A stretch of 33,015 nucleotides of DNA. It comes from a virus. The notes under the pieces were generated by a model that made no database searches, was not told the DNA's origin, and saw only the letters and a list, made by a program, of their open reading frames with translations. The stretch lies in IMG/VR virus record IMGVR_UViG_3300028025_002543, positions 1-33,015 of that record. One strand, written 5' to 3'. This document shows positions 5,103-26,415 of this stretch, one piece after another (within the stretch, counting starts at the first letter, position 1; the number at the start of each line of letters is the position of its first letter). The position numbers were made by a program, and so were the translations under genes.

Positions 5103-6095
5103 ATGAGCAACATCACAACACGTAGCGGGTTCGCCCCGCAGACAATGGCCGAGGCCATGCAGTTCTCAGAGACACTGGCCGCTAGCAGCATGGTGCCACG
5201 CGCATATCAGGGTAAGCCTCAAGATATCCTAGTGTGCGTACAGTGGGGTTATGAAATAGGCCTAGCGCCCATGCAGGCCTTGCAAAATATCGCAGTAATT
5301 AACGGTAAGCCTAGCGTCTATGGTGATGCGGCCTTAGCCTTGGTGCAGGCATCTCCGGTATGCGAAGGCATCGAAGAGAGTATTGAAGGCGAGGGTACTA
5401 GCAACCCGGTGGCCGTGTGCGTAGCGCAGCGCAAGGGACGCAAGCCAGTGACGGCTAGGTTCTCAGTAGAGGACGCTAAGCGAGCTGGTTTATGGGGCAA
5501 GCAAGGTCCTTGGACGCAGTACCCCAAGCGTATGCTGGCCATGCGTGCTCGAGGCTTTGCCTTGCGCGATGCGTTTCCCGATGTACTCAAGGGTCTGATC
5601 ACTGCAGAAGAGGCGCAAGATTACCCAGTCGAGGCAGCACCACGCGACATCACGCCGCGGCCAGTTGCTAACCCGTTGGATGCCATCGCAGCACCACAGG
5701 CACCAATGGTAATCCCTACTACAGTTGACGTAGTGTCAGCACACATTGAGGAAATTACAAATGCGGTTGTACAGGAAAACGTGGATGTGGTTGAGATTCC
5801 GGAAGTTGTCGTTTCTGTTGCGCCGCGCAATGAGGAAAGCTGGTATCTAGCAGTGCCCGGCAAAGGCGAGACAGAGTACCCGTCTTATGCAGAATGGGCA
5901 GCAGCCTATGAGGCGATGTGCGACAAGGTGGCATCAGCTGGCAAGGCTAGTGCAGAAGTCAGGATGTCTAAGTTAAACCAGTTGCGCGAGAGCAATGAGC
6001 ACATGTTTGTGCGCTTGAGCGTAGACGACAAAGTCAATCACTTGCAGTCCTATGCCAAGCGCAAGTCTGCAGTATTAGGAGGTGCAAATGGATAA
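5103..6095 (+). CDS. RecT-type single-strand annealing protein
   Basis: 330 residues; AAGGGG precedes the ATG. The N-terminal 175 residues match the RecT fold signatures: GYEIGLAPMQALQNIAVINGKPSVYGD (49-75) and KRMLAMRARGFALRDAFPDVLKGL (142-165), followed by an E-rich TAEEAQ. RecT-family proteins coat single-stranded DNA and anneal complementary strands, working with a partner exonuclease, here the YqaJ-type gene upstream. The C-terminal half is a low-complexity Val/Ala/Pro/Glu linker (about 180-250) followed by a small helical domain (SWYLAVPGKGETEYPSYAEWAAAYEAM), probably for partner contacts. Family assignment is from motifs only. Confidence 0.8.
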   Translation: MSNITTRSGFAPQTMAEAMQFSETLAASSMVPRAYQGKPQDILVCVQWGYEIGLAPMQALQNIAVINGKPSVYGDAALALVQASPVCEGIEESIEGEGTSNPVAVCVAQRKGRKPVTARFSVEDAKRAGLWGKQGPWTQYPKRMLAMRARGFALRDAFPDVLKGLITAEEAQDYPVEAAPRDITPRPVANPLDAIAAPQAPMVIPTTVDVVSAHIEEITNAVVQENVDVVEIPEVVVSVAPRNEESWYLAVPGKGETEYPSYAEWAAAYEAMCDKVASAGKASAEVRMSKLNQLRESNEHMFVRLSVDDKVNHLQSYAKRKSAVLGGANG

Positions 6096-6261
6096 GCCTT
6101 ACGTCACGGCCGCGGCCACGGATATTGCTAAGCGTTGGCGCGATGAATATAACTACGTGCCAGCCAGCGAGGTACCAGAGATCAAGGCCAAGCACGACAT
6201 GTTCCGCACCTACGGGTTTGACATTAACAAGGCGGGATTATGCGAACAGGCATCACACTAA
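6088..6261 (+). CDS. Small hypothetical protein (57 aa)
   Basis: 57 residues with a strong ribosome site (TAGGAGGTG, 6075-6083) five to six bases before the ATG at 6088, whose codon overlaps the end of the annealing-protein gene. The product is polar and helical (TDIAKRWRDEYNYV). Its tail overlaps the start of the secreted-protein gene by 22 nt. No family recognised. Confidence 0.6.
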   Translation: MDKPYVTAAATDIAKRWRDEYNYVPASEVPEIKAKHDMFRTYGFDINKAGLCEQASH

Positions 6262-6545
6262 TTGGCTTAGCCGTGTGTGTGGTGTGTCAGGCACAGGAGC
6301 AGCAGCCCTTGCCTGACCGCTTTGGCAATACGTATAGCCTGCCATCGCTGCCCAGTCAGGCCACGCCTACCACGTATCAGCCTACACCTATGTACGGACT
6401 AAGCCTGATCAATGACACCAACAAAAATGTGTACACCGAAAAGCAAGAGCTGCCCGGTGGCATTACTTTAATTAACCAGTCTGGCAAAAAAAATAGATTG
6501 ACTGTTTGCCAGCTTACACCAACAGGACAAACGGTATGCAACTGA
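6240..6545 (+). CDS. Secreted or periplasmic small protein with signal peptide
   Basis: 101 residues beginning with a basic residue and a hydrophobic core (RTGITLIGLAVCVVCQAQ), a likely Sec signal with cleavage after the A-Q region. The mature part is Pro/Gln/Thr-rich (LPDRFGNTYSLPSLPSQAT) and ends with a beta-like segment containing two cysteines (TVCQLTPTGQTVCN). A signal peptide in the early operon suggests a periplasmic target, for instance an envelope-modifying or exclusion factor; this is inference. Confidence 0.55.
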   Translation: MRTGITLIGLAVCVVCQAQEQQPLPDRFGNTYSLPSLPSQATPTTYQPTPMYGLSLINDTNKNVYTEKQELPGGITLINQSGKKNRLTVCQLTPTGQTVCN

Positions 6546-24032: not shown

Positions 24033-24878
24033 TTAAGCAGATTCGCGGCAAGTGATCTTGACGATACCTTCATCGTCAATAGCAATCGAGCCAGCGGAGA
24101 ACATCGAGGCCACCAAGAAAGAAGTCTTCTCGGGGATGTAATTGATTTCGGTCTTAGGTGCAATACCTTCGGCCATACCAATCGCATCGCGGTGGAATGC
24201 ATAGCAAGTACGATCCAGCGAACCGTCAACAGGCAAACCACCTTCTGAACGGTCACCCAACACATGGAACGTAAAGCCCAAGAATGTGTTGATGTCGCCC
24301 TGAACCAGCGCCTTCACAGTGTTGAAGTCGGAGCTGGTAACAGCTGTTTCGCTCAAGAGCGATGACAGGCCGTTAGCGTGGATAATGATGTGGCGGTTGT
24401 CCATTGGGACGTTACCAGCATCAAGCTTTTGCTTAGCAGTACGCAGTTTAGCTACGTTCAGGTTTGTGTCCGAACCACCGATGTCGTTGCTGACAGTCAA
24501 GCTGGTGCTCGAGGCAGCAAGTGCGTCGAGAATCAACTGGTCTTGGCGACGGCCGATAGCGTTAGAAACAACTTGAACCAACTCACGGCGCTCGTCAAAG
24601 TTGACTTTTGCTTGCATGAAGATATCGCTATATTCAGCAGCAATGTAGTCAGACAGAGTAGCGGTGACTTGACCGTACGTAACATTCAGCGGAGCAACGT
24701 CAGTCTGTGGAACACGGACTTGAGCGACACCCTTGCCGATCTTAGGGAACTTATATGTAGAGCCTTCAACACCTGCACGAACACGAACAGCGCCACGCAA
24801 TACGGCTTGCGCCTGATATGCCTGTTTAACTTCCGCATCGAACAGGGTTACAAAGGCGGTCGAGAGATTCTGAGCCAT
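24033..24878 (-). CDS. Major capsid protein
   Basis: 281 residues with AAGGA before the ATG. Features of HK97-fold capsid proteins of podoviruses: an N-terminal arm (TAFVTLFDAEVKQAYQAQ), the E-loop region (GSTYKFPKIGKGVAQVRV), the spine-like helix (VNFDERRELVQVVSNAIGRRQDQLILDAL), and the A-domain (DAGNVPMDNRHIIIHANGLSSLL ... VKALVQGDINTFLGF). The C-terminus ends with EGIVKITCRESA. It is coded between the scaffold and the tail tube genes, and it has its own promoter-like region and a 175-bp leader. Confidence 0.85.
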   Translation of the reverse strand: MAQNLSTAFVTLFDAEVKQAYQAQAVLRGAVRVRAGVEGSTYKFPKIGKGVAQVRVPQTDVAPLNVTYGQVTATLSDYIAAEYSDIFMQAKVNFDERRELVQVVSNAIGRRQDQLILDALAASSTSLTVSNDIGGSDTNLNVAKLRTAKQKLDAGNVPMDNRHIIIHANGLSSLLSETAVTSSDFNTVKALVQGDINTFLGFTFHVLGDRSEGGLPVDGSLDRTCYAFHRDAIGMAEGIAPKTEINYIPEKTSFLVASMFSAGSIAIDDEGIVKITCRESA

Positions 24879-25007
24879 TTGAAATCCTTAGATAAAGTTA
24901 AGAGAATTAGCGCTTCGGTTAGCCGGTGATCCGGGCCTACTACTTGCTAGTTACGCTAGCCAGTCGTCAGTTTCCACTGCGGCATAGGGTCGGTAATTTG
25001 ATTGGCC

Positions 25008-25022
25008 TATAACAGGGTTATA
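25008..25022. promoter_or_regulatory. 15-bp perfect palindrome over the capsid -10 box
   Basis: TATAAC-AGG-GTTATA (plus strand) has perfect 6-bp arms with a 3-bp centre. One arm is the -10 box of the promoter-like site upstream of the capsid gene. Either it is an operator where a repressor blocks the promoter, or a second -10-like arm arises by chance. The regulator is unknown. Confidence 0.45.
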
Positions 25023-25053: not shown

Positions 25054-25224
25054 TTAACTTTTGCTAATATCAGTAGTTGGTAGCTCTAGCGCATTGATGC
25101 GTCTTTCCAACTCTTTTGCAACATGTTCTCTTAACTTTGTGTTCTTAGTTAATTTAAATGTCTCTATTAAATTAATATTAGTCCAATCAGTTAAGCTATT
25201 AGGTAACTCTGTATCTGTATTCAT
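25054..25224 (-). CDS. Small charged protein upstream of the capsid gene (56 aa)
   Basis: An ATG at 25222-25224 opens a frame of 56 codons ending with TAA. AAAGG lies ten bases upstream. The product is a charged, mostly helical protein (NLIETFKLTKNTKLREHVAKELERRINALEL) with a D/T/S-rich start. Composition and ribosome site suggest a true gene. It is the only convincing CDS in the long gap between scaffold and capsid. No family recognised. Confidence 0.6.
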   Translation of the reverse strand: MNTDTELPNSLTDWTNINLIETFKLTKNTKLREHVAKELERRINALELPTTDISKS

Positions 25225-25437
25225 TAGGTTTATACCTTTGCTTTTTGGTGGACGAACCTAGCCTTTCCTAGATTCGCCTTAAACCGTTTGCTTTTCGGAG
25301 CCACGGAACCCGCCAGCCGTTCGGTATCGGGCGCTAGCTTCGCCACCCTTGCCTCTGTCTCATACCTGATCCCACAGTAGAGGCTATCCCCAATCCCTGC
25401 CGTCTATTAACCCGACGGATTGGCGGTTGTAATGATC
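25225..25437 (-). other. Hairpin-rich non-coding stretch before the 56-aa gene
   Basis: No convincing gene. On the minus strand: an 11-bp hairpin with two G.U pairs (arms 25251-25261 and 25268-25278, loop GAAAGG); CCAATCC...GGATTGG enclosing GTC...GAC around 25392-25422; and GCCTCT...AGAGGC around 25350-25385. The G.U pairs become A.C mismatches on the plus strand, which suggests the structured molecule is minus-strand RNA. A stop-free frame (25233-25403) lacks an ATG. Confidence 0.5.
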
Positions 25438-25525
25438 AAAAAAAAAGCTGTTTAAGAAAGCATTCCGGTGAGAGAACCCCCGTGGGAGTCAGGCTGAACG
25501 CCTCGGAACGCTTACTTAAACAGCT
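25438..25525 (-). terminator. Long-stem intrinsic terminator
   Basis: The outer 11-bp stem (arms 25446-25456 and 25515-25525) is followed by T9 on the minus strand (25438-25446). It could end transcription coming from the scaffold gene as well as the small RNA. The stem-loop is much larger than a normal terminator, which is why a structured RNA is suspected. Confidence 0.6.
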
Positions 25526-25544
25526 ATATGTCTCTCACGACAAC
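25438..25544 (-). ncRNA. Candidate structured small RNA ending in its own terminator
   Basis: From a predicted start near 25544, the minus-strand transcript contains a long stem: 11 bp (AGCTGTTTAAG with CTTAAACAGCT), one T.T mismatch, then 10 bp with one G.U pair. The 36-nt apical part can form two small hairpins (GGC-GUUCA-GCC, and ACUCCC-ACG-GGGGGU with one G.U). A run of about nine U follows the stem, as in an intrinsic terminator. A perfect TATAAT lies upstream. Promoter, structured body and terminator together suggest an independent RNA of about 105 nt; expression is not shown. Confidence 0.5.
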
Positions 25545-25550
25545 AATTTA

Positions 25551-25578
25551 ATTATATCAAAAAAAATCCCCAGCGCAA
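25551..25578 (-). promoter_or_regulatory. Candidate promoter with perfect TATAAT
   Basis: On the minus strand TATAAT (25551-25556) stands 16 bp after TTGCGC (25573-25578), a half-matching -35 located in the loop and arm of the preceding terminator. Predicted start near 25544, just before the long stem-loop. Confidence 0.45.
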
Positions 25579-25587
25579 GCCGGGGAT
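25559..25587 (-). terminator. Intrinsic terminator after the scaffold gene
   Basis: On the minus strand ATCCCCGGC-TTGC-GCTGGGGAT forms a 9-bp stem with one G.U pair and a tetraloop, followed directly by eight T. It lies about 30 bp after the scaffold stop and should end the packaging/portal/scaffold transcript. Confidence 0.85.
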
Positions 25588-25617: not shown

Positions 25618-26415
25618 TTAATTGTAGCGCTGGGCAAACAACTTTTCAACCTTTTGACGGTAGCCGGGATCGGATTGATACCGTTTATCGCCTACCATGG
25701 CTTGCAGTTCTTGGTCAGTTGGCATACCTTCCATTGGCTCAGACTCAACTGGGATCCGCCCTTCATAGGATTCACGGATCTTCATTAAAGCCTTTAAGCC
25801 TTTGGCAGTACCACCCATTACCTTAAACTCTTCAAAGTCGTCTTTGTTCCAGACTCCCTTGTTTACTAAGCCGCGTGCCCAGCTGACCATACCGTTGATT
25901 ACAGCGTCTGCATTGGCTCCTAATGCCTTGCGTTCCTCTGCCGGGTCAACAGTTGGGGTCATGCTGCTAGACATTTCTACAGCTTTGTCTGTCAACTGCT
26001 TTGCTAGTGAATCAAAAGCTACTTGAGAGATACCATTTTCCTTAGCCCATTCTTTAAATAATGGAACCATGGGTAGGTTTTCAGCATTCTCACCAAACGC
26101 TTTTAAGTCGTAATTACCGTCTGCTGGAGCCTTTTGCTTGCCTTGACTGACCATCTTGCGCATGTCTTTCCAAGACTTTGCAATACCTTCAAGGTCAGGC
26201 TCGTTGTCTTTCCAGAAGTTCTCTGGCCACCACTCTGGACGATCAACTGGCTCATCGTCTGGAATGCTATCAGCAGCCCTATGATCTACCTCTGACTTGT
26301 CTGCCTTACTAGAATCTGGCTGGCTTTCGTCCGATGTTTCCACACCGTCCAATAGGCCAGTTGCTTCTGGTGCTGCAGCTTCACTGGGTTGGACTTCAGA
26401 TTCTTTATCACTCAT
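25618..26415 (-). CDS. Capsid assembly scaffolding protein (T7 gp9-like)
   Basis: 265 residues, highly acidic at the N-terminus (about 1-60, Ser/Glu/Asp-rich) and helical after. The segments PEWWPENFWKDNEPDLEGIAKSWKDMRKMV and GNYDLKAFGENAENLPMVPLFKEWAKENGISQ are typical of podovirus scaffold proteins. A short basic helix at the C-terminus (GYRQKVEKLFAQRY) would contact the capsid protein. The scaffold guides procapsid assembly and is then lost. Order portal-scaffold-capsid agrees. The start overlaps the Bbp19-like stop by one base. Confidence 0.85.
   Translation of the reverse strand: MSDKESEVQPSEAAAPEATGLLDGVETSDESQPDSSKADKSEVDHRAADSIPDDEPVDRPEWWPENFWKDNEPDLEGIAKSWKDMRKMVSQGKQKAPADGNYDLKAFGENAENLPMVPLFKEWAKENGISQVAFDSLAKQLTDKAVEMSSSMTPTVDPAEERKALGANADAVINGMVSWARGLVNKGVWNKDDFEEFKVMGGTAKGLKALMKIRESYEGRIPVESEPMEGMPTDQELQAMVGDKRYQSDPGYRQKVEKLFAQRYN

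Follow-up and report, generated by a model that had tools for sequence, protein, structure and literature searches.

Organization of the locus

The window, meaning the whole stretch of 33,015 nucleotides that was analyzed, is the record of a podovirus-type virus that has RecE/RecT and a recombinase. No tRNA or tmRNA was found in the window, and none of the ORFs scanned looked like a phage RNA polymerase, so that host promoters and terminators are probably relevant. The region under study lies on the minus strand between the genes for a scaffolding protein and the major capsid protein (Table 1). Sixty-five homologues of the scaffolding protein were found, and its gene adjoins the capsid gene in relatives.

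Reading of the minus strand from 25578 to 25438 gave a -35-like TTGCGC, a spacer of 16 nt, TATAAT, an interrupted stem and a tract of nine T residues. An earlier note on this DNA had proposed a new phage small RNA here, and its interval of 25438-25578 is bounded exactly by the -35 and the last base of the U-tract. The terminator that it placed at the close of the scaffold transcript was recovered on the minus strand by a consensus scan (25587-25566), and the perfect TATAAT right behind it was present (25556-25551) together with the -35-like hexamer. The imperfect 21-bp stem and the nine-U tract were likewise found, as 21 pairs with one U.U mismatch and T9 at 25446-25438. The RNA, referred to as RNA1, was predicted to start at about 25544 and to end inside the U-tract, which corresponds to a length of about 105-106 nt; its 5' hairpin starts about seven bases past TATAAT. 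The 56-amino acid ORF farther downstream had no Pfam match.

The capsid leader (24879-25012, minus strand), which reaches from the capsid promoter to the start of the capsid gene, was strongly conserved in 35 diverse relatives. The conserved string reads GACCC..GCAG..GCTGACGAYTGGCTGGCG..AGCAAGC..GGCCC..GGCTNACCG..GCG, and some of the pairs covary. The leader had no Rfam match and is possibly a separate structured element.

Table 1. Features between the scaffolding and capsid protein genes of the window
Feature	Position	Strand	Basis or remark
Scaffolding protein gene (upstream neighbor)	25618..26415	-	Weak PHROG 1052 'head assembly' match at C-terminus
Intrinsic terminator of scaffold transcript	25566..25587	-	Consensus scan; loop TTGCGC is the -35 of the next promoter
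Sigma70-type promoter of RNA1	25551..25578	-	-35 TTGCGC 25578-25573, 16 nt, -10 TATAAT 25556-25551
RNA1, small RNA gene	25438..25544	-	Covariance model R1 and 97-sequence alignment A4
P1, 5' hairpin	25529..25544	-	Short in the window: UGUC/GACA or UGU/ACA
Pseudoknot strand a (P1 loop)	25531..25538	-	GTGAGAGA as DNA read; GUGAGAGA in RNA
P2, long interrupted stem, doubles as terminator stem	25446..25525	-	25525-25504 with 25467-25446
P3, apical hairpins within P2	25503-25476	-
Pseudoknot strand b	25468..25475	-	TCTCTCAC as DNA read; UCUCUCAC in RNA; follows the apical hairpins, precedes the P2 3' strand
RNA2, Rfam RF02932 'Betaproteobacteria-1' RNA	25308..25425	-	97.3 bits, gathering 49.4, E 2.7e-17
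RNA2 3' extension past the Rfam model	25247..25307	-	45 aligned RF02932-type loci
Small ORF, 56 aa, between RNA2 and capsid promoter	25054..25224	-	Sequence
Promoter of capsid gene, TTGCAC-17-TATAAC	25045-25017	-	Sequence
Major capsid protein gene (downstream neighbor)	24033..24878	-	PHROG 3437 major head protein, E 1.2e-56

Fold, strand and pseudoknot of RNA1

RNA1 has a conserved secondary structure with covariation. The stretch folded far below the energies of shuffled sequences on both strands, with z values of -4.78 for the minus and -4.70 for the plus strand. In a first alignment of 29 relatives without the window, 97.7% of the cells were paired and 24 of 37 pairs showed compensatory changes. 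The covariance model R1, built from this alignment with the window left out, recovered the window at 25546-25442 with 47.3 bits (E 6.7e-9). In the larger alignment A4 (97 members, 37 pairs), 97.0% of the cells were paired. Compensatory changes were found in 32 pairs; shuffles gave 24.1 and slid controls no more than 18, and none of 500 shuffles reached as high. P1 had 98.6% of its cells paired and compensatory changes in 4 of 5 pairs, and the corresponding counts were 18 of 20 pairs for P2 and 5 of 5 for P3. The outcome of the covariation analysis, which the earlier note had named as a check on its proposal, was thus very strong in the 97 homologues. A chance fold was excluded by the z value of -4.8 together with the covariation.

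The covariance model gave the plus strand of the stretch only 29.8 bits. The minus strand is favored because of the U-tract, the promoter and the model score, which bears out the strand assigned in the earlier note. An RNA from the plus strand was excluded, as it would be without a U-tract, has the lower score and lacks the promoter, which lies on the minus strand.

A kissing pseudoknot, in which the P1 loop base-pairs with strand b within the long stem, was overlooked by minimum free energy folding. In the relatives with the element between scaffold and capsid genes, inspection by eye showed the first hairpin loop to be complementary, each time with a different sequence, to a strand close to the apex of the long stem, and in the alignment of 29 relatives the pseudoknot helix showed up to four pair types per position. 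Six to eight Watson-Crick pairs between the loop and strand b were present in all 97 relatives despite 37 loop types. The mean was 6.98 pairs, compared with 3.23 (sd 0.09) for mismatched partners. This test is separate from the covariation analysis of A4, because that alignment was fitted to the nested structure and not to the pseudoknot. The description of the stem as topped by two small hairpins therefore holds for P3 but is incomplete, since the apical strand also takes part in the pseudoknot.

Promoter and terminator of RNA1

The first search pattern contained the -10 box, and for this reason promoter conservation was assessed on loci fetched via RNA2 signatures. Among the matches to these signatures that were listed, a sigma70 match of at least 9/12 at the right distance before RNA1 was found in 60%, compared with 3.5% of shuffles. 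Conservation of the promoter upstream of RNA1 is thus independent of the query. In the window, the -35 of the promoter sits in the loop of the scaffold terminator. The same fusion of terminator and promoter occurs in relatives, with TTGACA (L005), TTGCGT (L024 and L029) or TTGTCG (L046). At the other end, RNA1 relatives carry a U-rich tail with a mean of 7.4 T residues in the nine positions after the stem, and in the aligned members the intrinsic terminator consists of the foot of P2 and the U-tract.

RNA1 is followed by a second structured RNA

RNA1 and RNA2 together make up a cassette, in which RNA1 is the 5' half and RNA2 lies downstream on the same strand. In the window RNA2 belongs to RF02932 and lies directly downstream of RNA1, which the RF02932 model does not cover and which has a different fold. 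Elsewhere RNA2 is of other classes, for which no Rfam match was obtained in the relatives scanned; several RNA2 classes occur at the scaffold-capsid locus itself. Searches with two RNA2 signatures, one from the RF02932 core and one from the 3' end of a different class, each matched at least about 120 viral stretches. Among the matches listed, the covariance model placed RNA1 just upstream and on the same strand in many stretches. By a structural descriptor, again among the matches listed, RNA1 was upstream on the same strand in 90 of 91 class A/B RNA2 loci (0 in shuffles) and upstream in 63 of 112 RF02932-type viral loci (2 in shuffles). Many RF02932 copies without RNA1 come after the end of an apparent primase gene, for example in Acidovorax phage AP1, and RNA2 is therefore not always dependent on RNA1.

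Base pairing between RNA1 and RNA2 was no better for their own pairs than for mismatched pairs. An RNA1-RNA2 duplex was dropped as a candidate; with pairing not beyond chance, a direct RNA-RNA partnership is unsupported. No promoter of its own was evident for RNA2 in the loci read.

The order of the two RNAs would also fit a regulated terminator, a riboswitch- or protein-controlled attenuator that switches on RNA2 or the gene behind it with the pseudoknotted part as sensor. Both RNAs are on the same strand, RNA1 first, and the terminator lies between them. As a separate RNA2 promoter is not obvious, a regulated rather than a leaky terminator remains possible, and the RNA2 copies behind primase genes, which lack RNA1, are possibly transcribed from upstream. 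However, no conserved alternative partner for the strands of the terminator stem was clearly above chance: a partner of at least 7 pairs was found for the P2 3' strand in 17.5% of cases versus 16.5% in shuffled sequences, and one for the 5' strand in 40% versus 31%. The terminator of RNA1 also looks uniformly strong, and the genes downstream are very diverse. We therefore consider an attenuator unlikely.

In RF02932-type loci, conservation runs about 60 nt further 3' than the Rfam model (to about 25247 in the window), with the motif GUGGCUCCGA...AAGGC...CUAGGxxxGGCUAGGUxxGUCCACC in 45 such loci among the matches listed. Because of this continuation, the Rfam model looks truncated.

Extra inserts of about 110-200 nt lie between RNA1 and RNA2 in L046/L091, L092, L095, L117 and L126. 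They are bounded by a long inverted repeat, e.g. GACTGCTTAAAGATG...CATCTTTAAGCAGT, and ARAGORN called no tRNA in the inserts of several relatives. Three tRNA genes (Pro, Tyr and Thr; 330-686) are located directly ahead of the RNA1 cassette in L126.

Distribution and genomic context

Eighty capsid relatives were fetched for a comparison of the scaffold-capsid gap, and L141 and L142 were added via the scaffold protein. The gap is usually 180-270 nt long; it measures 739 nt in the window and 600-713 nt in a few others. The long gaps hold an inserted block ahead of the usual capsid promoter and leader. It is composed of a promoter, a hairpin (e.g. GUUGUCGU...ACAAC), a long stem with U-tract and a second structured region, in this order. 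Relatives have either the whole cassette, from the promoter and fold to the terminator and second RNA, or none of it, in which case the gap is about 180-270 nt and the scaffold transcript is closed by a simple terminator alone. Presence of the stem in relatives only as a variable terminator, which by the earlier note would have refuted its proposal, was thus not observed.

The cassette was present in 11 of the 133 rows of a capsid tree. To account for these rows, 8 changes are needed, and well-supported branches force 6 of them; for a few rows the gap was only partly visible. The distribution is patchy, with at least six gains or losses. The cassette appears to move between phages, although active mobility is inferred.

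Another stem-type element (GTGGG...CCCAC), with a -10-like box before it, was noticed just past the scaffold terminator in L141, L142 and L143, which are the closest scaffold relatives. It precedes RNA1 in L141 and L142.

Conservation of the element is by no means confined to scaffold-capsid gaps but extends to many other phage loci. The pattern of promoter plus hairpin matched 55 viral stretches, mostly true homologues in other genomic settings, and in total RNA1 was present in well over 100 environmental phages, nearly always beside a second structured RNA. Among GenBank phages, searched with few query variants, only MW202484.1 was found with the cassette, which within the limits of these queries is common in environmental phages and nearly absent from sequenced phage isolates. 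Bacterial genomes (GTDB) gave 18 matches to one strict pattern, none of which was a significant model match. In MW202484.1 (L224), an annotated hypothetical protein at 6023-6382 overlies RNA1 and RNA2 in part and is probably a false gene.

These data bear on the suggestion that the stretch merely adds an elaborate, possibly two-way terminator to the one already present between scaffold and capsid transcripts. Its stem and U-tract do have a good terminator shape, and both strands fold well. Such an element would need neither a promoter in front nor a covarying 7-bp pseudoknot, however, and it would not be expected in dozens of unrelated loci. Relatives that lack the element close the scaffold transcript with just a simple terminator. 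We regard this suggestion as barely tenable. A plain terminator, which the earlier note had already doubted, is in effect refuted by the promoter, the covarying pseudoknot and the wide distribution.

The genes downstream of the cassette fell into about 50 unrelated ORF clusters, led by a replication-initiation-like protein (40 loci) and the capsid protein (20 loci); further clusters include methyltransferases, a terminase-small-like protein and others. With two exceptions, the names of these clusters rest on reading of the sequences. No consistent downstream gene was found across the clusters, though 40 loci share the replication-initiation-like ORF. Because of this diversity, the cassette is not the control of one gene family.

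HNH endonuclease genes were located at most 410 nt behind RNA1 in L100, L106, L142, L241 and L415; in L415 the gene begins right at the U-tract, between RNA1 and a possible RNA2. L141 has an HNH_3 gene, of a different HNH type, behind RNA1. In all, an HNH gene is associated with only about 6 of about 147 cassettes, and the encoded proteins are small PF01844/PF13392 proteins. These genes, located inside or just behind some cassettes, raise the alternative that RNA1 and RNA2 are domains of one long RNA, such as an ORF-less or HNH-bearing homing or ribozyme-like element, with an incidental U-tract. The tight linkage of the two RNAs and the patchy distribution would fit this as well. On the other hand, RNA1 ends in a U-rich terminator throughout, RF02932 occurs without RNA1, the copies examined sit between genes and not within them, and no Rfam ribozyme or intron was matched in the relatives scanned. 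One long RNA is in our judgment improbable.

Discussion

We conclude that the stretch is likely a stand-alone noncoding RNA gene of about 106 nt, RNA1, whose transcription is inferred. In the two-RNA phage cassette, RNA1 is the 5' module and RNA2 the 3' module. The fold, the pseudoknot, the conservation of promoter and terminator, the linkage to RNA2 and the patchy distribution are computational observations. A discrete structured RNA gene is well supported by them, and its function is an inference made without transcript data. The earlier note was correct in its observation, and its candidate new phage small RNA is supported by the covariation, the conserved cassette and the Rfam comparison, although a discrete transcript has not been demonstrated experimentally. 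The pseudoknot, the RF02932 partner, the patchy spread and the other phage loci had not been seen in it.

Several known systems resemble the cassette in part. Type III toxin-antitoxin (ToxIN) and phage AbiF loci have the order promoter, pseudoknotted or structured RNA, terminator and second product. The order of elements in the cassette is similar, but its second product is a structured RNA instead of a protein, and RNA1 is one unit and not a repeat array. No toxin or Abi protein gene lay consistently downstream of the cassette; the downstream ORFs were not compared with a toxin or defence library. The HEARO/OMEGA RNAs of IsrB/IscB are, like the cassette, structured, patchy and sometimes beside an HNH gene. 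The HNH proteins of the cassettes are small, however, and most cassettes have none; no RuvC-HNH effector gene was found beside RNA1, and the relatives scanned gave no Rfam match to HEARO. Group I and II introns were not matched in these relatives either, and the copies read sit between genes. GOLLD and ROOL are ornate RNAs of unknown role from phages and metagenomes. RNA1 is likewise a structured phage RNA of undetermined role, but measures only about 105 nt, and neither family was matched in the window or the relatives scanned. In phi29 pRNA, loops pair between molecules. RNA1 is also a small phage RNA that uses loop pairing, but here the pairing is within one molecule, and packaging genes are not close to most cassettes.

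No Rfam family matched RNA1 at gathering level in the window or in the relatives scanned. RNA1 is unnamed in the literature searched, where RF02932 is not named either; an earlier description elsewhere is not excluded. Phage structured noncoding RNAs are known as a kind, whereas the RNA1 family, its pseudoknotted terminator design and the standing partnership with a second RNA appear to be new.

Host RNA polymerase is expected to start the stand-alone RNA1 gene at the sigma70 promoter, with its -35 in the loop of the terminator just upstream. The RNA folds so that the loop of the 5' hairpin kisses strand b within the long stem, and transcription ends at the foot of P2 with U9. Beyond this, the mechanism that seems likeliest can be put forward only tentatively, and others may prove correct. 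RNA1 may accumulate as a stable structured RNA acting in trans, while its terminator may pass a small share of transcripts into RNA2 and so set a fixed ratio of RNA1 to RNA2. Both the read-through and the action in trans are inferred. More speculatively, and with rather little confidence, the two RNAs could be a protein-free mobile phage system, with the pseudoknotted terminator RNA determining how much of the larger structured RNA2 is made. Such a system might, for instance, be an addiction or counter-defence unit that consists of RNA only.

With RNA1, the analysis contributes an RNA family that is sharply defined and has a kissing pseudoknot with covarying pairs, and RF02932 gains a partner RNA and a transcription unit. 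With a predicted start, a predicted end and compensable pairs, the expression and role of RNA1 are directly testable. The findings suggest that intergenic gaps of phages can hold arrays of undescribed RNA genes.
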